Shown here: one piece after another, positions 5,288 through 18,649 of the stretch
How the letters are laid out: each line of letters begins with the position of its first letter
How positions within the stretch are numbered: position 1 is the stretch's first letter
Source: a virus
Virus record (IMG/VR): IMGVR_UViG_3300020195_000164
Location: 1 to 24,163 of that record
Direction: 5' to 3' (one strand)
Length of the DNA: 24,163 nt
The notes under the pieces: model-generated
What the model saw: the letters and a program-made list of their open reading frames with translations, nothing else
Database searches by the model: none
Told to the model about the DNA's origin: nothing
Position numbers and translations under genes: made by a program

Positions 5288-6430
5288 ATGAATGTTCTTT
5301 CGCTCTTTGATGGGATGTCGTGTGGTCAGATTGCCCTTAATCGTGCAGGTATCAAATACGATCAATATTTTGCTTCCGAGATTGACAAGTCTGCGATGAA
5401 GGTGACGATGGCTAACTATCCTGATACGATTCAGATTGGTGACGTGACGAAGGTTGATGGTAGAAGTTTTCCACGAATTGATTTATTGATGGGCGGGAGT
5501 CCCTGTCAGGGCTTTAGTGTTGCTGGCAAGAGATTGAAGTTTGCTGACCCAAGAAGTGCGCTAATAATGGACTACTTCAGGATATTGGATATTTGTAAAG
5601 CAGTTAATCCAAAGGTCTATTTCATTTTAGAAAATGTTCCTATGGACAATAAATGTGAAATTGAAATCAGTCGGAGGCTTGGCGTGAATCCAATTAAGAT
5701 TAATGCAGCGTTGGTATCAGCACAGAATCGGGTGAGATTGTTTTGGTGCAACTTTGGAATTGAATCTTCAGATATGTACGGTCATGTGTCGTGGAGTATT
5801 CCGCAGCCCCAGGATAGGGGTATTGTCTTGAAGGACATCCTGGAATCCGAGGTTGACGAGAAGTACTATCTGAGTGAGAAGGCGTTGGCGAGGATTCAGA
5901 GGAAGGAGTATTTGGAGCCGAAGATCAATCCTGATAAGACGGGTTGTTTAAATACGAAGAACAATTCCGGCCAGTTGAGTGTAGATTCGGGGACTACATT
6001 AATTACCGACATTAATGGTAAACCGAAAAAAAAACAGGGGCATGACAATCACGGATCAAGGACGATGATCTTGCAACGGCCCCGTGGCAAGAACAAAGGG
6101 GGTGAACACACAGAGAAGTCCCCAACGATGAGTGGTAATTCGTGGCACACCAATCACGGAGTCATTCAGATCAATCCATCGCTTGAAAGTGGAGGTCAGC
6201 AACCATTCCAGCAAAATAGAGTTTACAATCCAGAGGGCAAGAGTCCGCACCTTGCCGCACAGTTGCCAGGTGGAGGGATGATCCGCAGATTGACACCGAT
6301 AGAATGTGAGAGGTTGCAGGGAGTACCCGATTTTTTTACAGCACACACTTCAGATTCCCAGCGTTACAAAATGTTAGGCAATGGATGGAATGTGGATTGT
6401 GTTGTTCATATTTTAAAACACATGAAATGA
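5288..6430 (+). CDS. DNA (cytosine-5-)-methyltransferase
   Basis: The product methylates cytosine C5 in DNA using SAM. Motifs appear in standard order: SAM loop FDGMSCG (7-13), catalytic GGSPCQGFS with Cys73 (69-77), ENV (115-117), QNRVRLFW (146-153), then after the target-recognition region RRLTPIECERLQG (333-345) and KMLGNGWNV (361-369). At 380 aa it is complete. The ~140-residue target-recognition region is rich in Gly, Asn and His, with an HGSRTMI/NHGVI near-repeat. It is the first gene after the promoter and operator, and its stop overlaps the terminase small-subunit start (ATGA at 6427). Likely roles are antirestriction or marking DNA before packaging. No partner endonuclease is visible, so it is probably an orphan enzyme. 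Confidence 0.93.
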   Translation: MNVLSLFDGMSCGQIALNRAGIKYDQYFASEIDKSAMKVTMANYPDTIQIGDVTKVDGRSFPRIDLLMGGSPCQGFSVAGKRLKFADPRSALIMDYFRILDICKAVNPKVYFILENVPMDNKCEIEISRRLGVNPIKINAALVSAQNRVRLFWCNFGIESSDMYGHVSWSIPQPQDRGIVLKDILESEVDEKYYLSEKALARIQRKEYLEPKINPDKTGCLNTKNNSGQLSVDSGTTLITDINGKPKKKQGHDNHGSRTMILQRPRGKNKGGEHTEKSPTMSGNSWHTNHGVIQINPSLESGGQQPFQQNRVYNPEGKSPHLAAQLPGGGMIRRLTPIECERLQGVPDFFTAHTSDSQRYKMLGNGWNVDCVVHILKHMK

Positions 6431-6933
6431 TTCACAGTAACAAAGAATTCGCTGCTATCTGTGGACTTAAAACAAAAGACCTGAGCAATTACATCAAGAG
6501 GGGTAAGGTAGTCTCAATCAACAAAAAGATTGACGATCAGTTACCGGAGAATGCAGAGTTTTTAGAGAAGTACCAAGCGAAGGCAGGGGCAGTTCATATT
6601 GATGTCAAAGAAAAGAAGTTCACGAAGGCAGAACAATCAAAGGCCCAGGAGTACATTAACAAGCAGGAGGCGAAGGCAAAGAGGGTTGAGGAATATTCGG
6701 TTTTGAATCAGAAGAAACGCCAGCTTGAAACAGAGCAGTTGACGGAGAGTATTCAACTCTTAAAACTGAAGAAGGAAAAACAGGAGGGGTACTTAATTCC
6801 CACCTCCCTTGTTCGGGACTTATTCACACAGCATTTCAGGAGCGTTACTATTTCCTTCCAGCAGGGGGCCGAAAACCTTATTGTTGAGATTAGTAAAAAA
6901 AAAAGTTTAGTCGGGAGGAAACGGCAAAGTTGA
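6427..6933 (+). CDS. Terminase small subunit-like protein, frame interrupted at A10
   Basis: The N-terminus (about residues 5-28, KEFAAICGLKTKDLSNYIKRG) looks like a helix-turn-helix DNA-binding unit, as in Nu1-type small terminases. A charged coiled-coil segment (about 60-120) and the block LIPTSLVRDLFTQHFRSV follow. Position directly before the large subunit fits. I chose ATG 6427 because it forms an ATGA overlap with the methyltransferase stop; 6385 would sit deep inside that gene. The frame ends at 6933 just after an A10 run (6895-6904). The -1 frame continues for 44 codons with coherent helical sequence to 7037, where its stop overlaps the next ATG. So the natural product is probably about 203 aa, with the 168-aa form a truncation. 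Confidence 0.65.
   Translation: MIHSNKEFAAICGLKTKDLSNYIKRGKVVSINKKIDDQLPENAEFLEKYQAKAGAVHIDVKEKKFTKAEQSKAQEYINKQEAKAKRVEEYSVLNQKKRQLETEQLTESIQLLKLKKEKQEGYLIPTSLVRDLFTQHFRSVTISFQQGAENLIVEISKKKSLVGRKRQS
6895..6904 (+). other. A10 run: slippage site or indel in the terminase small-subunit gene
   Basis: Ten consecutive A residues are followed by GTTTAG. In the zero frame the codons are AAA AAA AAA AGT. A -1 slip on A-AAA-AAA gives AAG TTT AGT and opens the downstream frame to 7037. Runs of nine or more A can also cause transcriptional slippage, and homopolymers of this size are the commonest place for sequencing indels. Confidence 0.6.
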
Positions 6934-7037: not shown

Positions 7038-7225
7038 AAGTTGGAACGCAACCAGATTTATCAGATATAATTGAGACACTCTTTACGAAAGGAACGCAAC
7101 CGGTAACAATGATTGTCACGGTTCCAAAATGGATGTCAAAAAAGTGTGACAGAGAGGGGTGGAGTTCATTGAGGCTTTTGCATGAGATAGAAAAACACGA
7201 CAAGAAGAAGCGGTCAAAAAAATGA
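7034..7225 (+). CDS. 63-aa protein between the terminase subunits
   Basis: A small basic protein starting at ATG 7034 (ATGA overlap with the extended small subunit) and stopping at 7225 (ATGA overlap with the large subunit at 7222). The middle VTMIVTVPKWMSKKCDREGW reads as a beta strand followed by a helix, and the C-terminus is a Lys/Arg tail (KHDKKKRSKK) suited to nucleic-acid or acidic-protein contact. No family is recognised. Tight coupling on both sides suggests a packaging-related role, but that is inference from position only. Confidence 0.55.
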   Translation: MKVGTQPDLSDIIETLFTKGTQPVTMIVTVPKWMSKKCDREGWSSLRLLHEIEKHDKKKRSKK

Positions 7226-9243
7226 CGAAGTACAAAAGCCAGGCTCTTGAAATAATTGAAAGCACAAAAATTCAGCTTTCAAACATTCTTCCTAGTGATT
7301 GGACGGAGAAGCACCGGGTTATGACAACTGACGTGTCCCCGTTTCCTGGGAAGTTCAGTTTTACAAGGACACCATACTATCGTGAGATTCTTAATTGTTT
7401 ATCACCATACCATCCGTCAAGAATTATTGCTGTAATGAAAGGAAGTCAAAATGGATGTTCAACCTGTGTAATCGAATCTGGTATCGGTTATATCATTGCA
7501 CAGAATCCGGGGAATATTTTATTTCTTACGGGTCACACAGAATTGGTTGAAGAAGCCATGAACAAGAAGGTGGACCAGATGATTGATAGTTGTGGACTTC
7601 GACCACTCATAAAGCCGAGCATCCTTCGGACCAAGAACATGAGGACGGGTGACACCAACAGGAGTAAAGAATTTCCTGGAGGGAGCCTAATTGCAGGGAG
7701 CGCATCAAATCACAAGTTGCTTCGGCAGAGATCAGTGCAATTTGGGTTCATTGATGACTTTGATGCCGCAAAAATGTCATCGAAGGAATCTGGAAGCACC
7801 ACAACCATGATAGAACAGCGATTTGCCGCCTACTATGAGAAGATGAAGCTGTTCTACATTTCCACCCCTGAGTTGAAAGAGACATCGAACATCGAGCCAG
7901 TTTTTTTACTTGGTGACCAGAGGTACTATCACATTCCGTGTCCTAAATGTGGAAAATTCATCGTATTAAAGTGGAATGTTGAAATTGAGGGCACAGATGG
8001 TCGGGAAAAAGGTGGAATGATATGGAAAACAGATAATCATGGTCACTTATTGCCCGGAACCGTTGAATATGTGTGTCAAAAGTGTGCGAATGCTTTCGAT
8101 GATACTGACAAAGATGAGTTGAACATAGCGGGTAAGTGGGTTCCCACTGCCGAGCCATCACAGGAGGGGTACTATTCATATCACATTTCTTCGCTCTATG
8201 CTCCGACTCAGATGTACGACTGGCAATTTTATGTCAGAAAATATTTGGAAGCCTGTCCTCAAGATGCACCGAGAAAAGAGGACAAGTACAAAGCCTTTCA
8301 GAATCTTGTACTCGGTGAACCTTATGAAAGGGAGGGGGAAGCACCGAAGGCAAATCAGCTTCAGCGCAACATCCGGCCTTACGATCCCAGGATTGTTCCA
8401 GAGAAAATTTCTATCCGGGATGGTAATGGGAAGATCGTTTTACTCACTTGTGCTGCCGACTTGAACGGAAATGAGGATGATGCACGTCTGGATTGGGAAA
8501 TTGTTGCATGGTCTGAGAACGGAGCCTCTTACAGCGTGGTTCATGGCTCCATAGGAACCTTTGTGCCACGTGAAGGAAATAGAGTGAATAAGGATGATCG
8601 TTTCCATTGGACATATCAACGTGGGAAGGCGTATAGCGTATGGCCTGAGTTTGAAAATATACTAGGAACCATTTACATGACCGACAATGACAGGAAGATG
8701 AAGGTGTTCATTGCCGGGGTTGACTGTGGGTTCCATTCAAACCATGCTTATGCCTTCGTTGACAGGGCAAATACTTATGTGATCGGGCTAAAGGGAAAGG
8801 ATGTGGAGGTTTATTCCAGATCATCTACTGTTGCAGACATTCCGGCTTTCCATACCGCAAAGGAGCGAAGCAAACTGTTTTTGGTTGAAGTGAATGCGGT
8901 AAAGGACGATTTGGCTGATTTGATGAAATTGAAGTGGGATGAGAGTTCAGGTGAGAAGCAGCCTCCTGGATTTATGAATTACCCACAACCTTCAGGTGGG
9001 TTGTATGGATTCAAGAATTTTTTCTCACATTACGAATCAGAACATCGGGTGACCGAAATGAGGACAAATGGAGCGATGGTTGCAAGGTGGGTGAAAAAGA
9101 GTTCCATTTCTCAAAATCACTGCTTCGATTTGAGAGTTTATGGGATGGCATTGAAAGATATTTTAGTTTCGCTAGTCTGCCGGGAACTAAAGATAAAGAA
9201 CTACACATGGCAGGATTACGTGAATTTAGTTTTGAAGAAATGA
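7222..9243 (+). CDS. Phage terminase large subunit, GpA family
   Basis: This is the DNA-packaging motor ATPase and nuclease that cuts concatemers and drives DNA into the prohead. At 673 aa it fits lambda GpA-type terminases (about 640 aa). Seen in order: a Walker A-like KGSQNGCST (73-81), Walker B-like FIDDFD (176-181), the coupling motif YISTP (212-216), a zinc-ribbon insertion CPKC (240-243) and CQKC (285-288) characteristic of this family, then nuclease acidic residues in AADLNGNEDD (411-420), AGVDCG (498-503) and near DLRVYGMA (about 636-643). All look intact, so packaging should be functional. ATGA overlaps join it to the 63-aa gene before and to the glycosyltransferase-like gene after. 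Portal and capsid genes would commonly follow; here they do not. Confidence 0.93.
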   Translation: MTKYKSQALEIIESTKIQLSNILPSDWTEKHRVMTTDVSPFPGKFSFTRTPYYREILNCLSPYHPSRIIAVMKGSQNGCSTCVIESGIGYIIAQNPGNILFLTGHTELVEEAMNKKVDQMIDSCGLRPLIKPSILRTKNMRTGDTNRSKEFPGGSLIAGSASNHKLLRQRSVQFGFIDDFDAAKMSSKESGSTTTMIEQRFAAYYEKMKLFYISTPELKETSNIEPVFLLGDQRYYHIPCPKCGKFIVLKWNVEIEGTDGREKGGMIWKTDNHGHLLPGTVEYVCQKCANAFDDTDKDELNIAGKWVPTAEPSQEGYYSYHISSLYAPTQMYDWQFYVRKYLEACPQDAPRKEDKYKAFQNLVLGEPYEREGEAPKANQLQRNIRPYDPRIVPEKISIRDGNGKIVLLTCAADLNGNEDDARLDWEIVAWSENGASYSVVHGSIGTFVPREGNRVNKDDRFHWTYQRGKAYSVWPEFENILGTIYMTDNDRKMKVFIAGVDCGFHSNHAYAFVDRANTYVIGLKGKDVEVYSRSSTVADIPAFHTAKERSKLFLVEVNAVKDDLADLMKLKWDESSGEKQPPGFMNYPQPSGGLYGFKNFFSHYESEHRVTEMRTNGAMVARWVKKSSISQNHCFDLRVYGMALKDILVSLVCRELKIKNYTWQDYVNLVLKK

Positions 9244-9893
9244 AAATAGGCTTATTGATTCCAGATAGAAATGACAGGCCAGAGTTTTTGGCTAACTGCT
9301 TACGAATGATGAAGGATCAGACGCTTCAGCCGGAAATAGTTGAACTGGTCAATGATCCACCAAAGGACGATAAGATTGACATTACATATCGTTACCGGAT
9401 TGGGTACGACAGATTGTGCAACAGAGGGCTTGACCTGATTGCCTTCATTGAGAACGATGACTGGTACAGTCCGAAGTATTTGGAGATTCACGCAAAGAAG
9501 TGGCTTGATACCGGGATGCCATTGATTCTTGGAACAAACTACACGATCTACTATCACCTTCGGATGCAGAAGTACTACACGATGTATCACGAACAGAGGT
9601 CTAGTTCGATGAATACGTTTATCAGACCAAATCAGATTATTGATTGGCCCGTTGACGATCAGCCGTACACAGATATTACCCTATGGGAACAACTTTATAA
9701 AAAAGGAGGACTCATCTGGCAACCACATATAATATCAGTAGGGATGAAACATGGTATTGGGAAGTGTGGTGGGTTTGCACACATTGACCAGCTTGAGCGT
9801 TACATTAATGATGACAGTGGATTTTTGCACAACACGATCCAGATGGAAGATGAAGAAAGTTTTCAGTTTTACACTAAATTCAAAAATGTATGA
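9240..9893 (+). CDS. GT-A fold glycosyltransferase-like protein (217 aa)
   Basis: The N-terminus reads like a family 2 glycosyltransferase: MKIGLLIPDRNDRPEFLANC, corresponding to the nucleotide-binding strand and first helix, then a DxD-type metal and sugar-nucleotide site IENDDWYSP (70-78). No transmembrane segment is present, so it should act in the cytoplasm on a soluble acceptor. The donor sugar cannot be predicted. The start at 9240 is set by the ATGA overlap with the terminase stop; an earlier start at 9087 would lie inside the terminase. It opens the 13-gene sugar/methyl cassette. Fold assignment is moderately sure, substrate unknown. Confidence 0.7.
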   Translation: MKIGLLIPDRNDRPEFLANCLRMMKDQTLQPEIVELVNDPPKDDKIDITYRYRIGYDRLCNRGLDLIAFIENDDWYSPKYLEIHAKKWLDTGMPLILGTNYTIYYHLRMQKYYTMYHEQRSSSMNTFIRPNQIIDWPVDDQPYTDITLWEQLYKKGGLIWQPHIISVGMKHGIGKCGGFAHIDQLERYINDDSGFLHNTIQMEDEESFQFYTKFKNV

Positions 9894-10027
9894 AAGAGCC
9901 TTATGTAAAAATTACTATCAAGGAGTACAATGACCTCCGTGATGGATTTAAAGTTTTTGAAGAAGCCATCAGAGAACTTATAAAACAAAAACAAAAAAAA
10001 CCATGGTATAAATTCTGGAAATTATGA
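9890..10027 (+). CDS. 45-aa basic protein
   Basis: ATG 9890 overlaps the preceding stop, and the TGA (10025-10027) overlaps the next ATG (10024), so it is coupled on both sides. The product has an acidic, helical first half (YVKITIKEYNDLRDGFKVFE) and a strongly basic, aromatic end (KQKQKKPWYKFWKL) that could bind membrane, nucleic acid or a partner enzyme. No known family is recognised. The double ATGA coupling is the main evidence that it is real. Confidence 0.55.
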   Translation: MKEPYVKITIKEYNDLRDGFKVFEEAIRELIKQKQKKPWYKFWKL

Positions 10028-10524
10028 TACAAGAAGCAAACCTGATATGGCAGTATAAAGACACAGAATGTCTTGGATTAGTGATGCCCTGGTACACACT
10101 TCCAGCATTGGAGTGGTTGAAGTCACAGGACACAAAGAACTGGAAGGTATTTGAGTTTGGTACGGGGTATTCCACTATCTGGTGGCTGCTTAATTGTCGT
10201 GATCTCAGAGGGGTTGAATCAAATAAAGAATGGGCAAATGCAATTGGTAGTTATTTCATAAACAATAAAGAATCGTATGTGAATGCGTCTGGTGGGGACT
10301 CAGGAGAATATAACTGCATCATCGTTGATGGTATTGACCGAGAGGAATGTGTCAGGAATTGTTTAGACAACATCAGGAGTGGTGGGTTCCTCATCATTGA
10401 CAATTTTGAAAGTGAGAACTACGATGCTTCACAGACGGATGAACTTTTGAAAGACTGGCCCGTTGTGTTGCATCATCAACCGAACCATTCTGTTTGGGTG
10501 ACTGCTATTTTTACAAAGCCATGA
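10024..10524 (+). CDS. Class I SAM-dependent methyltransferase-like protein (166 aa)
   Basis: A Rossmann-type SAM site is visible: KVFEFGTGYST (41-51) as motif I, an acidic strand end VESNKEWA (64-71), EYNCIIVDGID (95-105) as motif IV and GGFLIIDNFES (120-130) as motif V. No DNA-methyltransferase signature (DPPY or PCQ) is present, so small molecules, sugars or proteins are likelier acceptors. The pentapeptide NKEWA and the layout recur in the methyltransferase at 15071, suggesting paralogy. It sits between glycosyltransferase-like genes, so methylation of a transferred sugar is a reasonable inference. Confidence 0.7.
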   Translation: MIQEANLIWQYKDTECLGLVMPWYTLPALEWLKSQDTKNWKVFEFGTGYSTIWWLLNCRDLRGVESNKEWANAIGSYFINNKESYVNASGGDSGEYNCIIVDGIDREECVRNCLDNIRSGGFLIIDNFESENYDASQTDELLKDWPVVLHHQPNHSVWVTAIFTKP

Positions 10525-11237
10525 GCAATATATTAATAAAATTTGCTACAAGGGGCAGACCAGAATGGTTTAAGAAAGCCATCGTCAACATCTTGGGGAC
10601 AAAGAGAACCAGGAGTATTATTATTTTGGTTACTGCCGATGAGGACGATCCTACAATGAACAATGATGACATTCGGAAGTTCGTTGAAAGATATTTTTCT
10701 GTTGTGATTATCTACGGAAAGTCAGAAAGTAAAATTCATGCGATCAATCGGGACATTGACCAAATGGGAAATTGGGATATACTCATCAACATGAGCGATG
10801 ACATGATGTTCATAGTTGACGGGTGGGATGACATCATGGTAAAAATGATTCAAGAAGTTTGGGGTGACTCACTTGATTTTTTTGCACACTTCAATGATGG
10901 ATATATTGGAGACAAGTTGGCAAGCATGAGCATCATTGGGAAAACTTACTATGAGAGGGACAATTACATTTACTACCCTGAGTACAAATCTTTTTCATCG
11001 GATGCCGAAGCGTGGTTTGTAGCAAGAGCCAGAGGCAGACATCATTACTTCCCTGAAGTTCTTTTCTTGCACCAGCATCCAACATGGACCCCACGAAGCG
11101 ATGATGAAACATACCGTAGGAATTCACTTGCAACTCCGCACGACTTGGAGGTATATTGGAGAAGATTGAATAGTAACTTTGGGCTTGAAATAGAAGGCCA
11201 CACACTTTGGGATGAATTCAAAACAAAAAAACCATGA
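10521..11237 (+). CDS. GT-A glycosyltransferase-like protein (238 aa)
   Basis: The N-terminus MSNILIKFATRGRPEWF matches the ...(T/S)RxRP...start of family 2-like transferases. KIHAINRDI (71-79) precedes WDILINMSDDMMFIVDGWDD (85-104), where SDD replaces the usual DxD metal site. A late HHYFPEVLFLHQHP segment supplies histidines typical of the C-terminal acceptor side. The protein at 15592 shares the RxRP start, the AIN motif and the SDD site, so the two look like diverged duplicates. There is no membrane helix. The start is set by the ATGA overlap at 10521. Sugar and acceptor are unknown. Confidence 0.7.
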   Translation: MSNILIKFATRGRPEWFKKAIVNILGTKRTRSIIILVTADEDDPTMNNDDIRKFVERYFSVVIIYGKSESKIHAINRDIDQMGNWDILINMSDDMMFIVDGWDDIMVKMIQEVWGDSLDFFAHFNDGYIGDKLASMSIIGKTYYERDNYIYYPEYKSFSSDAEAWFVARARGRHHYFPEVLFLHQHPTWTPRSDDETYRRNSLATPHDLEVYWRRLNSNFGLEIEGHTLWDEFKTKKP

Positions 11238-11836
11238 AACCATCACTTGCCATTTTAATCTGCACACTCACGGATCGAAAAGAATTATTTGATCGAGTGT
11301 CCAAAGAACTTCAGTCGCAAGCATCAACGGTTGAAAATGAGGTTTTCATTTTAAAAAATGAGGACTCAAGAGAAAAGACAACCGGCCAAAAGCGTAATGA
11401 ATTACTTGAGCAAGCAAGACTGTTAGGAGTAAAGGTCGTTAGTTTCGTTGATGACGATGATATGGTTGGACCAACATATATTAAGAGAGGAATTGAAGTG
11501 GCTGAAAGCGGGATGGACTGTGGAGAGTTGTGGGGACAAATATATTTTAATGGTGTTCGTGGTAATCCATTTCATCACTCATTAATTCACAAGGAATGGT
11601 ATCAGGATGAAAAGTTTTATTACAGAAATCCAAACCATCTGAATTTTACAAGGCTTGATGCAATCAAAGACATCAAGTATCAAAACATGACAATTGGAGA
11701 GGACGGACAATATTCACTTGCCATTACTGCGGCAGGTGCGCTGAAAACAATGTATCCTATTCCAGAAATTATTTATCACTATTTTACAGGAGAACCAAAA
11801 TACGCACTTGAACTGCGAAAGTTATGGGTAAATTAA
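11234..11836 (+). CDS. Family 2-like glycosyltransferase (200 aa)
   Basis: Features of a GT2 enzyme are clear: LAILICTLTDRKELFDRV (5-22), TTGQKRNELLEQA (49-61) and the metal site VVSFVDDDDMVGPTYI (68-83), then GEDGQYSL (155-162), which fits the ED acceptor-base motif. At 200 aa it is the catalytic domain alone. No transmembrane segment is present, so it differs from lipid-linked GtrB-type enzymes. It starts in an ATGA overlap and runs 13 bases into the next gene. Best-supported glycosyltransferase of the cassette; donor and acceptor unknown. Confidence 0.78.
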   Translation: MKPSLAILICTLTDRKELFDRVSKELQSQASTVENEVFILKNEDSREKTTGQKRNELLEQARLLGVKVVSFVDDDDMVGPTYIKRGIEVAESGMDCGELWGQIYFNGVRGNPFHHSLIHKEWYQDEKFYYRNPNHLNFTRLDAIKDIKYQNMTIGEDGQYSLAITAAGALKTMYPIPEIIYHYFTGEPKYALELRKLWVN

Positions 11837-12633
11837 TTTCCTACGCCCTTTTCAGTCATCCTTCAGCACTACCCTTCGAGCGACTTGCATACGTTCGTGG
11901 ATTTTATTTTAATGCCAGGATGAACAATCTCATGTTCCCTGATTGGAGAACTCATTTGGAAGTTGATCGTGTCACACACGATGAGTTTGCTGGATTATTC
12001 AAATGGCTTATTGAGAACAATAATCTTGATATTCACGTGAACGAAGTGAGTCCACTACTTTGTGAAGGAATGATTTGGAGGATGAAGCCAGTGTGGACTG
12101 CTGACATTACGCACGTACTGTGCAGGGATTGTGATTCGATAACAACGTACAGAGAGGCGCAGTGCGTTCAGCAGTGGCTTGAGTCTGACTACCATCATCA
12201 TGCGATCAATGACAATCCGGCTCACGGAGGATTAATGGGTGGTATGGTTGGATTTGAAACGGCTCACCTGAAATCAATCATGGGATGGACTTCATGGGAA
12301 CAAATGATTTCTGGTTACAACCTTTCTGAGAGAGGAAGCGATCAGCAGTTGATGAATGAAAGAATGGGAAAGTATATTGCACCAAGCACGATGCTTCACA
12401 AAATTCAGGGAGCAGGATTTCCGGCTGGACGTATTATTTCAGAAGTTCCATTAATCCGGTTACCGCAAGTTGATCCTACTCTTTGGGAATCAAACCTTGT
12501 CTGCCGACACATTGGCTCTGCCGGAGTTGTTGACATGGAAGTTCTACGGTACTTCAAGCGGTGGGACGCTTACGACTGGAAGTATCAGCCGATTGAAAAA
12601 GAATTTTCAAGATTATTTTATTGGCAGCAATGA
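11824..12633 (+). CDS. Glycosyltransferase-like protein with RDCDS motif (269 aa)
   Basis: The centre reads THVLCRDCDSITTYREAQCVQ (96-116), a strand ending in a DxD-like site with flanking Arg residues. QQWLESDYHHHAINDNPAHG and GGMVGFE follow, which matches a pattern I know from capsule- and virus-type transferases (R-D-x-D-S, then a WL...H...H...GGMWG-like segment). I therefore call it a sugar transferase of uncertain family. It overlaps the upstream gene by 13 bases instead of the four used elsewhere, and is joined to the next by ATGA at 12630. No signal or membrane segment. Confidence 0.62.
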   Translation: MGKLISYALFSHPSALPFERLAYVRGFYFNARMNNLMFPDWRTHLEVDRVTHDEFAGLFKWLIENNNLDIHVNEVSPLLCEGMIWRMKPVWTADITHVLCRDCDSITTYREAQCVQQWLESDYHHHAINDNPAHGGLMGGMVGFETAHLKSIMGWTSWEQMISGYNLSERGSDQQLMNERMGKYIAPSTMLHKIQGAGFPAGRIISEVPLIRLPQVDPTLWESNLVCRHIGSAGVVDMEVLRYFKRWDAYDWKYQPIEKEFSRLFYWQQ

Positions 12634-13406
12634 AAAAATATATAGTTCTCTCGGTCAACGAGAATCCAGAATATCTGTACTACTTGCCCCTCACCTGTTG
12701 GGCATGGAGAAAGTTTGGGTGGACACCTATTGTCTTTACTTCCGGTGTAGTTCCTGAAAATTTCAGAGTGGAAACACCATTAGTTTTTCCATTAAAGGAA
12801 ATTGACGGATACAGGTCTGATACGATTGCTCAAGTGTCAAGACTTTATGCTGGAGCCATTTCATTGAATGGTGATCCAATAATTATGACGGGGGACGTTG
12901 ACATGATTCCTCTTTCCGACTACTGGAACCCACAGGACGGTGATATAACGATCTACGGGCACGATCTCACAGGTTACGTTCATTATCCCATCTGTTACAT
13001 TGCGATGAATAAGCATAGGTGGGTTGAGGTAATGGGACTTTCTGGAAACGATTACGATGCTCTTATTAAGCGTGATCTTGATACCCTACCACAAGCCAGG
13101 GCTGACTTCGATCCGGTTAGGCGATGGGTCAGTGACCAAGATTTAATAACGAAAAGGCTCAATGAGACTCAATTTAAAAAGGTTTTTGTGTCACGTGGAA
13201 CATTAACCAACGGTTATCCGGTAGGCAGGGTTGACAGGAGCGCATGGACGATAGACCATCAACAGTTGATTGACTGCCACTTATTCAGAGGGCTTTACGA
13301 GCCAGCAAATGTTAAGTTTGATGCTACACTTGAATTACTGAGGAAGGTTTGGCCTAACGAAGATTTTACTTGGTTCATTGACCATACAAATAAATGGATG
13401 ATGTAG
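12630..13406 (+). CDS. GT8-like glycosyltransferase (258 aa)
   Basis: After an N-terminal KYIVLSVNENPEYLYYLPL segment, the strand IIMTGDVDMIPLSDYW (84-99) carries GDVDMIP, a close match to the metal- and UDP-sugar-binding DxD of GT-A family 8-type enzymes. A later RRWVSDQDLI (about 165-174) resembles the DQD segment that follows in that class. The length suits a single catalytic domain, with no membrane helix. A TTG start at 12621 would add three residues; ATG 12630 is preferred because it forms ATGA with the preceding stop. The acceptor is unknown. Confidence 0.7.
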   Translation: MKKYIVLSVNENPEYLYYLPLTCWAWRKFGWTPIVFTSGVVPENFRVETPLVFPLKEIDGYRSDTIAQVSRLYAGAISLNGDPIIMTGDVDMIPLSDYWNPQDGDITIYGHDLTGYVHYPICYIAMNKHRWVEVMGLSGNDYDALIKRDLDTLPQARADFDPVRRWVSDQDLITKRLNETQFKKVFVSRGTLTNGYPVGRVDRSAWTIDHQQLIDCHLFRGLYEPANVKFDATLELLRKVWPNEDFTWFIDHTNKWMM

Positions 13407-14035
13407 TATTTGTCAGTGTTGGCTTCGGAGAGAAGTATATTGAGCAACAGGATCGACTGAAGGAATCAATACTTGCCATCTACCCAAATGCAAACTTGCT
13501 TTTCTTCCGTGACCGCCTTCCAGCGAAGTCAAAACAATTTTTTGATTCGCTGTACGGATTTAAGGTCCATGCTATTCAGGAAGCGTTGGAGTTTGGATTT
13601 AAAAAAGTAATATGGTTTGATCCAGCAATGATTCTTGTTGACAAGATTGACAACCTATTGGATTATTGGATGGTCGCAGTGAAAGACGACAACAAACTGC
13701 ACAATTGTATTTCTGTGAAGGCGTGTAATTTTTTCAAGACCAGTTCATACGTTGTTGAGCAACTTGGATGGAACCTTGTAGGAGGTAGTTTATACTATTT
13801 CAATTTTCACGACATGAGAGTACGATCTATTTTTATATTATGGAAGGAGTCAGAGGAAGCTGGATGTTTTGGGAGTCAGGTGGAAGCGGCAAGTGAACAG
13901 CTTCAGGGACATCGTTATGATGAAGCGTGTCTTGCTTTGTCAATGTACGGTCACCACCTTCATCCAGTCAGCGCACCCGAAGTAAGATACTGCATAGAGA
14001 ATAATCCTATGTTTATAAAAAAGCACTTTAAATGA
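13394..14035 (+). CDS. Glycosyltransferase-like protein with altered DxD (213 aa)
   Basis: The order of elements parallels its upstream neighbour: an N-terminal VVFVSVGFGEKYIEQQDRLK, then KVIWFDPAMILVDKIDNLLD (71-90) where the strand ends in FDPAMIL rather than DxD. The C-terminal part has HRYDEACLALSMYGHHLHP, recalling the DE/DQ-x-acceptor region of GT8-type enzymes. The changed metal motif could mean an inactive or metal-independent transferase. It overlaps the preceding gene by 13 bases and is coupled to the next by ATGA at 14032. The family call is weaker than for its neighbours. Confidence 0.52.
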   Translation: MDDVVFVSVGFGEKYIEQQDRLKESILAIYPNANLLFFRDRLPAKSKQFFDSLYGFKVHAIQEALEFGFKKVIWFDPAMILVDKIDNLLDYWMVAVKDDNKLHNCISVKACNFFKTSSYVVEQLGWNLVGGSLYYFNFHDMRVRSIFILWKESEEAGCFGSQVEAASEQLQGHRYDEACLALSMYGHHLHPVSAPEVRYCIENNPMFIKKHFK

Positions 14036-14580
14036 TTTCAGTTATTGCAGAACATTCCGTTGATCTTGATTTGCTTCCTGATTTAGCTAAGATTCTCGAT
14101 TTAGGATGTCGTGGTTTTAGATTCGCTAATGAAATGGCAAATCACATTGTAGTTTCTGTTGACATTGATGATCTTGGGTCCGATCACCCGTATCTTCGGT
14201 GTGCAGTAAGCGATTTTGATGGGTTATGTGGGATAATTAATATTGATGATAAACAAGCTACAAAAATTAATAGACAGGGAACCGGAATTGATTGTTACAC
14301 CCTGAAATCAATTTCACAGAGGTTCAATGTGAAAATGTGGGATTTGATAAAGATGGATATAGAGGGAAGTGAGTATGAAATAATTATGAGTCTGAATGAA
14401 CCACCAGCAAAACAGTTAAGTATTGAGTTTCATCTGCATACCGGAGCATATAAGATTTTTGAAATGAACATGATGGAGAATAAACTGAAATCACTTGGCT
14501 ATGAGTTTGTGAAACATGATTACACAACTCAACACGGAGCCGGGTTTAATTATTGGGATTCTTTGTGTGTTTTGAAATAA
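14032..14580 (+). CDS. FkbM-family SAM methyltransferase (182 aa)
   Basis: The signature is good: ILDLGCRGFRFA (21-32) as the SAM loop, VSVDIDDLG as motif II, CYTLKSIS (88-95), and above all WDLIKMDIEGSEYEII (103-118), the hallmark of FkbM-type enzymes. IEFHLHTG follows. FkbM methyltransferases commonly O-methylate sugar hydroxyls in natural products, glycans and rhamnose-containing polymers, which fits this glycosyltransferase-rich operon. Length is near the domain size. There is an ATGA overlap upstream and an 8-bp gap downstream, the only gap inside the cassette. Confidence 0.82.
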   Translation: MISVIAEHSVDLDLLPDLAKILDLGCRGFRFANEMANHIVVSVDIDDLGSDHPYLRCAVSDFDGLCGIINIDDKQATKINRQGTGIDCYTLKSISQRFNVKMWDLIKMDIEGSEYEIIMSLNEPPAKQLSIEFHLHTGAYKIFEMNMMENKLKSLGYEFVKHDYTTQHGAGFNYWDSLCVLK

Positions 14581-14588
14581 ATGAAGGT

Positions 14589-15074
14589 ATGGCAATAATA
14601 GGAAACGGAAATATAGCTAGGGTTTTAAACGACAGAGAGGGGGCAATCTTTTTTGCGTCCGGTATTTCAAATAGTTCAATTGTTGGCTCTTCAAATGAAT
14701 GGGAAAGAGAGAGAGTATTATTGAAGTCACAACCACGTGACTTGTGCCTGTTCTATTTTAGTTCAATCGGTATTTATACTTGCAAAAAAGATTATTACCT
14801 GCATAAGATCAACATGGAGTGGTTGGTAATTGAACTTTTTCCTAACTACAACATCATTCGCTTGGGAAATATTTCATGGGACACAAACCCAAACACGTTC
14901 TTGAATTTTATCCGAAACAAAATTGCAAAAGGGGAACCTGTTGAAATCAGGAACGAGTATCGCTACATGATTGACAAGGAGGACCTACTTGCAATAACAG
15001 ACACACTTCCACTTGTCGGCCAAAGAAAAATAAACGTATTTTCAAGAATGGCAAAAGTAAAAGACTTGATATGA
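14589..15074 (+). CDS. Compact SDR/epimerase-like NAD(P)-binding protein (161 aa)
   Basis: The N-terminus AIIGNGNIARVL (2-13) is a Rossmann dinucleotide loop. FYFSSIGIY (55-63) and YYLHK (69-73) fit the catalytic Ser and YxxxK of extended SDR sugar epimerases and reductases, followed by NYNIIRLGNISWD, the usual strand after the active site. At 161 aa it is about half the length of typical extended SDRs, lacking much of the substrate domain and the N-terminal spacing, so it may be a minimal or degenerate enzyme. ATG 14589 gives the Rossmann loop at the right distance; a longer TTG start at 14553 overlaps the FkbM gene. It may supply or modify the nucleotide sugar used by its neighbours. Confidence 0.6.
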   Translation: MAIIGNGNIARVLNDREGAIFFASGISNSSIVGSSNEWERERVLLKSQPRDLCLFYFSSIGIYTCKKDYYLHKINMEWLVIELFPNYNIIRLGNISWDTNPNTFLNFIRNKIAKGEPVEIRNEYRYMIDKEDLLAITDTLPLVGQRKINVFSRMAKVKDLI

Positions 15075-15595
15075 CAAAAGAAGAATTCACAACCGGAATA
15101 GATGAGTGGAGTAATCACAGACTATTGTTGTATCCGGCACTGGAAGCAACAAAGCATCTGAAACTTCCTGTTTTAGAAATGGGCTGTGGTAATGGCAGCA
15201 CTCCATACCTAAAGCAGTATTGCAAAGACGAAGGATTGCAACTTTGCTCTTTCGACAACAACAAAGAGTGGGCTAAAAAGTTTGGGGCCAACTATTGTCC
15301 TGATTGGGACTTTATGGCTTGGTTTTATAAAATGCAATACTCAGTGGTACTTGTTGATGAAGCACCTGGAGAACATCGAAAAGTAGCATTAGAGTTATTT
15401 AAACAATTTCCAATCCATGCTCAAATAATTGTTGTTCACGATTCGGAACCAGTTGGATGGAACTCGTCTGATTATCAGGTTCGGCCAATTATTGAAAAGT
15501 TTAAGTACTACCAAGATTTGATTTCAAAGAATACCGGTGGAGCATGGGCAACAATATGTTCGATGACAATTGATGTAACTGATTTCAAGATATGA
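15071..15595 (+). CDS. SAM-dependent methyltransferase-like protein (174 aa)
   Basis: PVLEMGCGNGSTPYLKQY (33-50) is a clear class I motif I. FDNNKEWAKKFG (61-72) is the acidic motif II region, SVVLVDEAPGEHR (91-103) motif IV and AQIIVVHDSEP motif V. The NKEWA pentapeptide and the VDxxxxEER/VDEAPGEHR region align with the methyltransferase at 10024, suggesting both descend from one gene. No DNA-specific catalytic motif is seen. ATGA overlaps on both sides couple it to the SDR-like gene and to the next glycosyltransferase-like gene. Confidence 0.7.
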   Translation: MTKEEFTTGIDEWSNHRLLLYPALEATKHLKLPVLEMGCGNGSTPYLKQYCKDEGLQLCSFDNNKEWAKKFGANYCPDWDFMAWFYKMQYSVVLVDEAPGEHRKVALELFKQFPIHAQIIVVHDSEPVGWNSSDYQVRPIIEKFKYYQDLISKNTGGAWATICSMTIDVTDFKI

Positions 15596-16275
15596 GTTTG
15601 GTGAGCATCATTCATCCCTCACGGTCCAGACCAGACCAAGCATTTGAAACTGCCGAGCAGTGGATTTCAAAAGCCGGATGTGACGTAGAGTATATCCTGA
15701 GTCTTGACATTGACGATCCGAAAAAAACTAAATACCTAACGCATACTCATTCTGGATTAAAGCGATTCATAACAAGGTTCCATGACAACCGTTCAGCGAT
15801 TGACGCAATCAATGGTGGTGCTTGTGAGGCACACGGAAATATATTTATTGTGATTTCAGATGACTTTGAGTGTCCAGAAGATTGGGGAAAATACATTCTT
15901 GACTTCGTTGGCGAAAGACGAGACTGGATTATCAAAACACAAGACGGGATTCAGGATTGGGTTATTACACTTCCGATCATGGACCGGGATTACTACAATA
16001 GATTCCTTTACATCTACAACCCACAATACCTTCACGGATTTTGCGATACTGAAATGACGTGTGTAGCGGAACTAACCGGAAGAAAATTAGTTTGTGACAT
16101 TCCATTCAAGCACAATCACTACACGGTTGGTGGGATCAAGGACGAGGTGAGCGAACGTGCTGATGCACACTTTGAACAAGGAAGGCAAGTATTTTTGGAA
16201 AGGAAAAGTAGAAACTTCTATTTACCTGATACACCAGGAAAAATGACTGATAACATTTACACCAAAATGATATGA
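15592..16275 (+). CDS. GT-A glycosyltransferase-like protein (227 aa), paralog of 10521 gene
   Basis: LVSIIHPSRSRPDQAFETAE (3-22) is the family 2-like start, YILSLDIDDP (34-43) the end of the second strand, and SAIDAINGGACEAHGNIFIV (68-87) with ISDDFECPEDW (88-98) the region leading to the SDD metal site. These match the gene at 10521 in order and in key residues (RxRP, AIN, SDD, then W). Late CDIPFKHNHYTVGG provides acceptor-side histidines. No membrane helix. ATGA overlaps flank it on both sides. Sugar and acceptor unknown. Confidence 0.7.
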   Translation: MSLVSIIHPSRSRPDQAFETAEQWISKAGCDVEYILSLDIDDPKKTKYLTHTHSGLKRFITRFHDNRSAIDAINGGACEAHGNIFIVISDDFECPEDWGKYILDFVGERRDWIIKTQDGIQDWVITLPIMDRDYYNRFLYIYNPQYLHGFCDTEMTCVAELTGRKLVCDIPFKHNHYTVGGIKDEVSERADAHFEQGRQVFLERKSRNFYLPDTPGKMTDNIYTKMI

Positions 16276-17057
16276 TTGAAGTAAAAAAACTTACTGCTAT
16301 TTACAACATTTGGGATGGCGTTGAATTATTAAAAGGTTCCATTGACTGCATCAAAAATCATGTTGATCTGATAATCATTGTATATCAGAACACCTCAAAT
16401 TTTGGAGAACCGTTTGCCCCATTGAGCGATATTGACACTTCAGATGTTGAGGCATACCATTGTCCTGTCATCTATGAGAAATACACCCCGATAGCAATGG
16501 GTGGGACGTTCAACGAGCAGAACAAGCGCAACATAGGAATAACAATTGCAAGAAAGAATGGATGTTCACATTTCTTCCACATTGACGTTGATGAGTACTA
16601 TGAAGATTTTGGAAAGTCTTTTGAGGAATACATGGAACTTGGATCATCCGGTTCGGTCTGCCCAATTTATACTTACTTTAAAAAACCAACATGGAGGCTT
16701 GAAACATTAGACAATTACTACGTTCCATTCATTCATCACTTAAAGGATCACACGGCTTCTGGATATGGATTCAATTATAAATACTACGTGGACCCGACAA
16801 GGGTAATCAATGAAGCTGATGTATCAATACTTTCAACTCCGATGCACCATTATTCCTGGGTCAGAAATGATATAAAGCGAAAGGCAAGAAATTCGTCAGC
16901 CGGACAGCAAGGGAACAAACTAACTGGCCTATTGGACATCTACTCACATTTGGATTCTAATTCAGACCCGACAGGATTTATAATTCCAGATATGGGCAAC
17001 CAAAAACTCATTGTGGTTGAGGACTTTTTTGGTATCGGTGATGTTTTGTCCGTATAA
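16272..17057 (+). CDS. GT2-like glycosyltransferase (261 aa), last gene of the cassette
   Basis: LTAIYNIWDGVELLKGSIDC (7-26) fits the start of family 2-like transferases that retain a long first helix, and IIIVYQNTSNFGE (34-46) the second strand. FNEQNKRNIGITIARKNGCS precedes SHFFHIDVDEYYED (99-112), a strong DxD metal site. The rest is helical with many aromatic residues, including MHHYSWVRNDIKRKAR. The protein is soluble. ATGA links it to the previous gene; after it comes a 77-bp gap, the first substantial break since the methyltransferase promoter, so the cassette ends here. Confidence 0.72.
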   Translation: MIEVKKLTAIYNIWDGVELLKGSIDCIKNHVDLIIIVYQNTSNFGEPFAPLSDIDTSDVEAYHCPVIYEKYTPIAMGGTFNEQNKRNIGITIARKNGCSHFFHIDVDEYYEDFGKSFEEYMELGSSGSVCPIYTYFKKPTWRLETLDNYYVPFIHHLKDHTASGYGFNYKYYVDPTRVINEADVSILSTPMHHYSWVRNDIKRKARNSSAGQQGNKLTGLLDIYSHLDSNSDPTGFIIPDMGNQKLIVVEDFFGIGDVLSV

Positions 17058-17134: not shown

Positions 17135-18649
17135 ATGGCTTCAGATGCAGTGGGCAGCGAGAGAGTATCCAGGGTCGTTGGGTATAAAATAACAAAGGGT
17201 AATTTCAGTAACACAACGCCCAACCTCCCTCATAGGATTGCGGTTATTGCAGAAGCCAACAATGCTAATCAAGCCTCACTCTCCCTCACCCCAAAAGAAA
17301 TTACGACACTCCAGCAAGCCGGACAATTTTACGGTTATGGCTCACCGATCTATACTATCCTTCGCATCCTTCGCCCGACAGGTGGTGATGGTGTTGGTGG
17401 AATTCCGGTAGTTGTTTATCCACAAGCCGAAGCTGGTGGAGCGTCAGCAAAAGTTATTCTCGTTTCTGCTTCTGGAGTTGCAACCGGAAATGGAACCCAC
17501 AAACTGAAGATTGCCGGACGTGATGGTGTTGACGGAACTTTTTACGATTTGAATATTGTGACAGGTGATTCGTCAGCTAGCATTGCGCTTAAAATTTCAA
17601 ATGCAATAAATGCAGTTCTTGGTTCACCGATGCAAGCATACAATTCAGGATATGATGCAATCCTAACAAGTAAATGGAAGGGGCTTACAGCAAACGATCT
17701 GAACGTAGTTGTTGATCGTGGGGACTTTACACTTGGTTTGACGTACACCGTTGTAAATCAAACAGCCGGAAGCGCAACACCAAGCGTTCAACCAGCACTT
17801 GATCTTTTTGGTGCAAGCTGGAATACTATTGTTGTAAATTCATACGGGGCTGTGTCAGCCGTTATGAGTACACTTGAAGCATTCAATGGTATTCCTGATC
17901 CATCAACTCCTTCTGGACGGTATGCTGCACTCATTATGAAGCCATTCATTGCCATCACTGGCTCCGTTGCAGACGATCCTTCTTCTGTAACTGATCCAAG
18001 ACTGAATAATGTTACTATTGCCATTGCGCCAGCACCAGGGTCAACCGGATTACCAATGGAAGCCGCAGCAAACGCTACTCTGTTATTTGCACGTCAGGCA
18101 CAGGACAATCCAAATCTTGATATTGCCGGATCATTCTATCCTGATATGCCGACACCGATAAGTATTGGGTCAATGGTTGTTTATACATTCCGTGATTCAA
18201 TCGTGAAGAAGGGATGTTCAACAGTTGATCTTGTTGCAGGGAGGTATCAAGTGCAGGATTTTGTCACAACCTATCATCCAATTGGAGAGATTGTTCCTCA
18301 GTTCCGTTATTGCAGGAACCTGAACATAGACTTCAATGTGCGTTTTGGGTATTATTTACTTGAGCAAATACACGTAGTTAACCATTCAATTTCCAAAGAC
18401 GGAGACACGGTATCTGCAAACAAGGTTGTCAAGCCGAAGCAGTGGGATGCGGTGTTGAGTGGTTATGCTGATGACTTGGCACTCAGGGCACTCATTGTTG
18501 ATTCAGCGTTTATGCAGGACAGCATTTTAGTGAATATAAGTACGACTAATCCTGACAGACTGGAAACTTTCTTCCGCTATAAGAGAAGTGGTTTCGCAAG
18601 AATTGCAAGCACGACAGCAGAGGCGGGATTTAATTTTGGAACCGTTTAA
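17135..18649 (+). CDS. Contractile tail sheath protein (Mu gpL-like)
   Basis: This forms the outer contractile cylinder around the tail tube. The 504-aa protein has the sheath layout: an N-terminal strand-rich segment with a PHRIAVIAEANNAN motif (32-45), GQFYGYGSPIYTILRILRPT (63-82), a variable Gly/Ser/Thr-rich middle with VTGDSSASIALKISNAI (about 141-157), and a C-terminal part with AGSFYPD, QDFVTTYHPIGEIVPQFRYC and DFNVRFGYYLLEQIHVV. This C-terminal region is the conserved sheath core that attaches to the tube. Size agrees with Mu gpL (about 495 aa). It is followed by the tube gene after 11 bp. The gene order sheath-tube-chaperone-tape measure confirms a myovirus-type tail. Confidence 0.88.
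   Translation: MASDAVGSERVSRVVGYKITKGNFSNTTPNLPHRIAVIAEANNANQASLSLTPKEITTLQQAGQFYGYGSPIYTILRILRPTGGDGVGGIPVVVYPQAEAGGASAKVILVSASGVATGNGTHKLKIAGRDGVDGTFYDLNIVTGDSSASIALKISNAINAVLGSPMQAYNSGYDAILTSKWKGLTANDLNVVVDRGDFTLGLTYTVVNQTAGSATPSVQPALDLFGASWNTIVVNSYGAVSAVMSTLEAFNGIPDPSTPSGRYAALIMKPFIAITGSVADDPSSVTDPRLNNVTIAIAPAPGSTGLPMEAAANATLLFARQAQDNPNLDIAGSFYPDMPTPISIGSMVVYTFRDSIVKKGCSTVDLVAGRYQVQDFVTTYHPIGEIVPQFRYCRNLNIDFNVRFGYYLLEQIHVVNHSISKDGDTVSANKVVKPKQWDAVLSGYADDLALRALIVDSAFMQDSILVNISTTNPDRLETFFRYKRSGFARIASTTAEAGFNFGTV

Follow-up and report, generated by a model that had tools for sequence, protein, structure and literature searches.

The window analysed here, a linear IMG/VR virus fragment of 24,163 bases (record IMGVR_UViG_3300020195_000164), contains a cassette of 13 open reading frames (ORFs), c1–c13, between the genes for the large terminase (TerL) and the tail sheath. 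As an earlier note on this DNA had proposed from the letters alone, this is a soluble, closely packed set of glycosyltransferases (GTs) and methyltransferases coupled to structural genes. We propose with moderate confidence that the cassette acts in the cytoplasm while virions assemble, where it would glycosylate and methylate one of their proteins, most likely in the head. Virion decoration appears the likeliest function because sister enzymes in related phages bear a piece of a capsid-neighbour protein.

Organization of the cassette

All 13 frames are open and start with ATG at the positions first proposed for them. The genes are conserved in relatives, with identical order in L002, L010 and L051, and at the cassette end in L015, at ~42–64 % identity. 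The tight joins described in the earlier note, beginning with the TerL stop, were also borne out, as ten of the 13 junctions from TerL–c1 through c13 are 4 nt ATGA overlaps, two are 13 nt overlaps and one is an 8 nt gap. No membrane helix was found among 19-residue stretches of the cassette proteins (highest mean Kyte–Doolittle value 1.16), which agrees with what had been said of the enzymes. The cassette and its borders are as follows.

7222–9243, plus strand: large terminase, GpA family, left border of the hotspot (Pfam GpA_ATPase 3.2e-50, GpA_nuclease 4.6e-42); its stop overlaps the c1 start by 4 nt
9240–9893, plus strand: c1, GT2-type GT with predicted GT-A fold (AlphaFold2 pLDDT 93.8; Foldseek SpsA 7.8e-7)
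9890–10027, plus strand: c2, 45 aa protein of no clear family (ORF with 4 nt overlaps)
10024–10524, plus strand: c3, class-I S-adenosylmethionine (SAM) methyltransferase-like (motifs; Methyltransf_24 2.1e-4 in relative L051, below cut-off)
10521–11237, plus strand: c4, GT, paralogue of c12, with which it clusters (PHROG_14945 2.7e-13)
11234–11836, plus strand: c5, GT (PHROG_14775 1.4e-26)
11824–12633, plus strand: c6, GT-like, probably GT-A type (AlphaFold2 pLDDT 73; Foldseek neighbours)
12630–13406, plus strand: c7, GT-like by motif (conserved DxDM in the alignment)
13394–14035, plus strand: c8, GT-like by motif (alignment; fused to a c9 homologue in L035/G011)
14032–14580, plus strand: c9, FkbM-family methyltransferase (Pfam Methyltransf_21 4.9e-8, above cut-off)
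14589–15074, plus strand: c10, short protein resembling short-chain dehydrogenases/reductases (SDRs) and RmlD (GxGxI and YxxxK invariant; weak RmlD match in L051)
15071–15595, plus strand: c11, class-I SAM methyltransferase-like (Methyltransf_23 0.12, below cut-off; a glycine-rich motif present too in the c3 family)
15592–16275, plus strand: c12, GT, paralogue of c4 (PHROG_14945 6.3e-13; Pfam GT2 6e-4)
16272–17057, plus strand: c13, GT-like by motif, the final gene in most cassettes (position, conserved motif)
17135–18649, plus strand: tail sheath, right border of the hotspot (PHROG_165 6.7e-79)

The earlier count of eight GT-like proteins, three SAM methyltransferases and one SDR-like protein stands to differing degrees. 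Four of the GTs (c1, c4, c5 and c12) are well supported, c6 is moderately so, and c7, c8 and c13 were recognized by motif only. The c1 model gives a confident GT-A/GT2 fold, its top Foldseek matches being SpsA and further GT2 enzymes; the acidic metal-binding motif D73 D74 is invariant, and viral proteins structurally close to the model include the glycosyltransferase of mycobacteriophage Che8. The neighbours of the c6 model are nucleotide-diphospho-sugar transferases and glycogenin. Among the methyltransferases, c9 matches Pfam PF05050 (FkbM) with 33.7 bits against a gathering cut-off of 22.7, while c3 and c11 are class-I-like by sequence, with profile matches below cut-off. For the 161 aa c10, both SDR motifs are invariant in five sequences, but its profile search returned no significant match, the only RmlD hit being sub-threshold in a single relative. 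PDB profile searches with c6, c7, c10 and c13 gave nothing useful, nor did profile–profile comparison among the cassette GT families. An Rfam search and a PADLOC run on the cassette proteins were likewise of no use, and matches to a strict Bacteroidota promoter consensus near the cassettes were too few and too scattered.

The TerL–sheath interval is an exchangeable slot

Counting relatives with both borders readable, we found the TerL–sheath slot to be empty in 19, with the two genes 80–250 bases apart, and filled with 0.9–9 kb in 21. The majority of these insertions are GT cassettes, on either strand. GT2-domain matches occurred in 13 of 20 contigs, and in none of the five empty-slot contigs scanned. 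In a quick tree the window and the window-type plus-strand cassettes of L002, L010, L015 and L051 form one supported clade (SH-aLRT 96). On a sheath tree of 38 rows, no fewer than 19 changes are required to explain the slot contents, and no fewer than eight for the empty/plus/minus state. Minus-strand cassettes are common, and that of L021 is close to an inverted window cassette. The earlier note had inferred a late-expressed system; late co-transcription is not supported as a defining trait, because many relatives carry the cassette on the strand opposite to their late genes. A second, divergent slot lies beside the portal gene in L166, L178, L179, L184, L185, L192 and L198.

Within these islands c1 is the near-constant member and c13 usually closes the cassette. 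In L190 (2788–3450) and L197 (2771–3442) c1 is the sole recognized cassette gene between TerL and sheath, which makes these a minimal version of the cassette. The middle is variable: it may consist of c3–c12 as in the window or of GT/FkbM combinations, or else a GT2 termed X5 is accompanied by a hexapeptide acyltransferase and an amidotransferase of the asparagine-synthase-like kind. In one relative (L035/G011) the c8 and c9 homologues form a single protein of 418 aa.

Three side observations concern these islands. In L146, L171 and L176, c1 stands at the TerL end adjoining c13, uncoupled from its usual first position in minus-strand cassettes. The plus-strand cassette of L010 includes a protein (2407–2922) that by eye resembles an HNH/AP2-type homing endonuclease and could help the island to spread. 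Finally, homologues of c1 and c13 lie side by side, without the myovirus neighbours, on a viral contig of jumbo size (L205, 482,156 bases; match at 6001–6627).

Head genes of relatives lie downstream of the tail module

The earlier note had the cassette replacing head genes, and called for the portal and capsid genes to be sought elsewhere. There are indeed no head genes in the window; replacement, however, was rejected, since in 14 of 14 long relatives these genes lie downstream of the tail. The order in all 14 is small terminase (TerS), TerL, slot, sheath, tube, tape measure, baseplate, ~5 more genes, portal, protease, decoration, capsid, head closure and neck. Contigs G004, G007, G013 and G016 are cut at other points and their ends share sequence; their order agrees once circular permutation is allowed for. 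The lack of head genes between TerL and sheath thus follows from the gene order of the clade together with a truncated contig, and comparison with G001 and G003 predicts the head module ~5 kb past the right end of the window. The isolates Cellulophaga phage phiSM and Flavobacterium phage FCV-1 are built differently, with their portal, protease, capsid and neck genes placed between TerL and sheath.

A capsid-neighbour module on cassette enzymes of relatives

Evidence on the target of the cassette came from a module of ~48 residues on the TRANSFERASES, first noticed via an unexpected BLAST link. A first clustering had placed proteins encoded next to the major capsid gene in the c1 family; this grouping was rejected as single linkage via one module-bearing c1-type GT, and it was through this artefact that the module was found. 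In order to trace it, a hidden Markov model (HMM) was built from the small ORFs between the capsid and head-closure genes and searched against six-frame ORFs of 14 contigs, two isolates and the window, plus 16,297 such ORFs from the collected loci. All matches were of two kinds: either the ORF that separates the major capsid gene from the head-closure gene, or a cassette protein encoded near c1, which has the module at its N-terminus. Because sheath and c1 served to gather the loci, cassettes are over-represented in them, yet the full contigs give equal exclusivity. The capsid-adjacent ORF was present in ten of the 14 long contigs and in FCV-1 (gp24), which the HMM detects; tblastn of the module in isolates gave nothing useful. 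Module-bearing cassette proteins of the relatives fall into about six architectures with differing bodies.

X5 GT2: module at the N-terminus, at many loci; GT domain supported by Pfam
L004 protein: module and c1-type GT, then a second GT; GT domain supported by Pfam
L020 protein: module at the N-terminus; GT-like by position and appearance only
L192 and L198 proteins: module, ~550–600 aa; GT supported by Pfam in L192, GT-like by position and appearance only in L198
L169 protein: module, 760 aa; GT domain supported by Pfam
L166 and L178 proteins: module, ~290–330 aa; L166 GT-like by position and appearance only

On these comparisons, a single module from the head region has been recruited several times by unrelated transferases, for which putative docking to a head component is the best reading.

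Proposed function and alternative explanations

For a cassette acting on the virion, we infer acceptor, product, timing and benefit as follows. Soluble GT-A enzymes would take host sugar nucleotides and, on a protein of the virion (most likely of its head), assemble a short sugar chain. The chain may be attached or started by c1, which is near-constant and occurs alone, and extended or capped by c4–c8, c12 and c13. The FkbM and class-I methyltransferases would O-methylate the sugars, and the c8–c9 fusion in one relative suggests that c9 may methylate the sugar added by c8. Swapping of the middle genes would yield different surface glycans, and the benefit might lie in shielding from binding, proteases or predators, or in altered adsorption. 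We count in favour of this function that c1 cassettes are located at structural-module junctions (TerL|sheath or beside the portal) and that their partners are sugar-tailoring enzymes (FkbM, asparagine-synthase-like amidotransferase, hexapeptide acyltransferase). A broader proposal, which we put forward tentatively and consider rather doubtful as a whole, is that these are exchangeable glycosylation islands in which the small capsid-neighbour module, fused to several unrelated GTs, brings enzymes to the assembling head, so that the glycan coat, be it methylated, acylated or amidated, would differ from phage to phage.

Several observations weigh against virion decoration. The module HMM found nothing among the six-frame ORFs of the window, its own 13 cassette proteins included, and G003 and G014, the closest complete-cassette relatives and of the window cassette type, have no module ORF beside the capsid gene; the case for head docking therefore reaches the window via the shared c1 family alone. 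The GT-like character of c7, c8 and c13 comes from conserved DxD-like motifs alone, with no convincing profile or PDB match, and c1 occurs in no sequenced isolate among 50,697 phage records.

It is possible, if unlikely, that the cassette modifies host surface glycans instead, altering O-antigen, capsule or other Bacteroidota glycans in infection or lysogeny and so excluding superinfecting phages or hiding the infected cell. Cassettes are frequently opposite in strand to the late genes, mixtures of GT2, FkbM, asparagine-synthase-like and hexapeptide-acyltransferase genes are typical of O-antigen and capsule clusters, and peripheral soluble GTs can make lipid-linked sugars at the cytoplasmic face; we keep this explanation because the alternative cassettes resemble O-antigen tailoring sets. 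Set against it, the window cassette has no membrane anchor, flippase or GtrA/GtrB-like pair, and cassettes are tied to structural modules, with enzymes in relatives bearing the capsid-neighbour module.

The earlier note had left capsid, tail or DNA as targets. Module–GT fusions in relatives point to a head or other virion protein, and hypermodification of DNA, in which GTs would glycosylate hydroxymethylated bases and lengthen the sugars, in the manner of T-even and TET-type phages, seems quite unlikely. A C5-cytosine DNA methyltransferase ORF in the window (5288–6430), directly upstream of and overlapping the TerS ORF, speaks for it, with homologues in part of the relatives only, as do a weak match of c5 to PF20691 TAGT, which is not significant (E 0.16), and a TET/JBP-family dioxygenase in the cassette-bearing G007, the contig of L022 (42029–42391, minus strand of the record; L079). 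Among 20 relative contigs, TET was found in one and the thymidylate-synthase family, of which the dCMP/dUMP hydroxymethylases are members, in none; these contigs include the cassette-bearing and probably complete G004 (contig ends share sequence). These counts disfavour DNA glycosylation as the general function, although the window genome is incomplete and its missing part may hold an acceptor-making enzyme. As an observation in its own right, the single TET/JBP gene hints at possible DNA hypermodification in the G007 phage.

Glycosylation of a tail or baseplate protein instead of the head, tuning receptor binding, is in our judgement very unlikely. The commonest slot directly adjoins the sheath gene, and mycobacteriophage tail-tube glycosylation has been reported (cited in a passage of PMC12619734); however, the module shared with the GTs belongs to the head region and the second slot is beside the portal. 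An assembly chimera or contaminating bacterial glycan cluster, suggested by head genes missing where phiSM and FCV-1 have them and named by the earlier note as a possible refutation, was rejected and has a negligible probability, since many independent viral and metagenome-assembled genome (MAG) contigs share identical junctions, empty slots and alternative cassettes occur at the identical place, and third-position GC overlaps between cassette and phage genes.

As for the rest of the window, the short ORF at 1397–1618 may be a truncated or frameshifted remnant; it appears to resemble the N-terminal part of an XF1762-like protein conserved in phages, followed by a stop.

Comparison with known systems

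To our knowledge, experimental evidence for glycosylated phage particles comes from few systems. In the mycobacteriophage Che8 and its relatives (Freeman et al., 2023), phage GTs are thought to glycosylate capsid and tail-tube proteins, according to passages of PMC12619734 and PMC11256854. The likeness lies in phage-encoded GTs and in the resemblance of the c1 model to the Che8 enzyme; the differences here are up to 13 genes, methyltransferases and other tailoring enzymes, an exchangeable hotspot, GTs of relatives with a capsid-neighbour module, Bacteroidota hosts and a product that is predicted. The chlorovirus PBCV-1 makes a methylated N-glycan on its capsid with viral GT and methyltransferase domains (A064R, A061L; PMC9614988). 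It shares a virus-encoded GT and methyltransferase chain on a capsid protein and a GT–methyltransferase fusion, comparable to that of c8 and c9 in L035. PBCV-1, however, is a eukaryotic algal virus, likened here by description. We know of no exchangeable slot beside its structural genes.

The gtr seroconversion modules also employ phage-encoded GTs, but are lipid-linked and work with membrane proteins, whereas the window cassette has no GtrA, GtrB, membrane GT families or membrane helices. Phage DNA glycosylation (T4-type, TET-associated) resembles our system in its phage GTs and the cytosine methyltransferase of the window; nearly all relatives, in contrast, are without a hydroxymethyl-base enzyme. 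With phiSM and FCV-1, the nearest sequenced isolates, the window shares homologues of its TerL, sheath, tube and baseplate genes, and FCV-1 gp24 places the module beside the capsid gene, but neither has such a cassette between TerL and sheath, where their head genes lie.

Distribution and significance

Sheath relatives were found chiefly in MAGs of Bacteroidota, one of them on a Taibaiella contig of 1.0 Mb, and the cassette phage is of a Bacteroidota myovirus lineage. IMG/VR holds at least 361 c1 relatives; a TerL-based search for relatives there gave nothing useful. Neither c1 nor c13 had a match in the 50,697 phage records, and c6 had distant matches only, in large phages, which fits the earlier suggestion of an undescribed system. 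Phage virion glycosylation as such is already known (mycobacteriophages; passages of PMC12619734 and PMC11256854). The novelty lies in a hotspot with exchangeable contents, in the wide range of tailoring enzymes and in a capsid-neighbour module carried by transferases, no description of which was found in a limited literature search.

These findings bring to light a widespread, undescribed lineage in which exchangeable sets of glycan genes occupy fixed positions in the genome, and offer a testable rule for how a GT may find its virion target. If the island and docking proposal is true, phages would have a counterpart to the serotype switching of bacteria, one with its own rule for substrate docking built in. 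Confirmation would account for a large class of phage GTs that so far lack an explanation, would help to predict phage surface diversity from sequence, and would make the docking module usable for capsid labelling.

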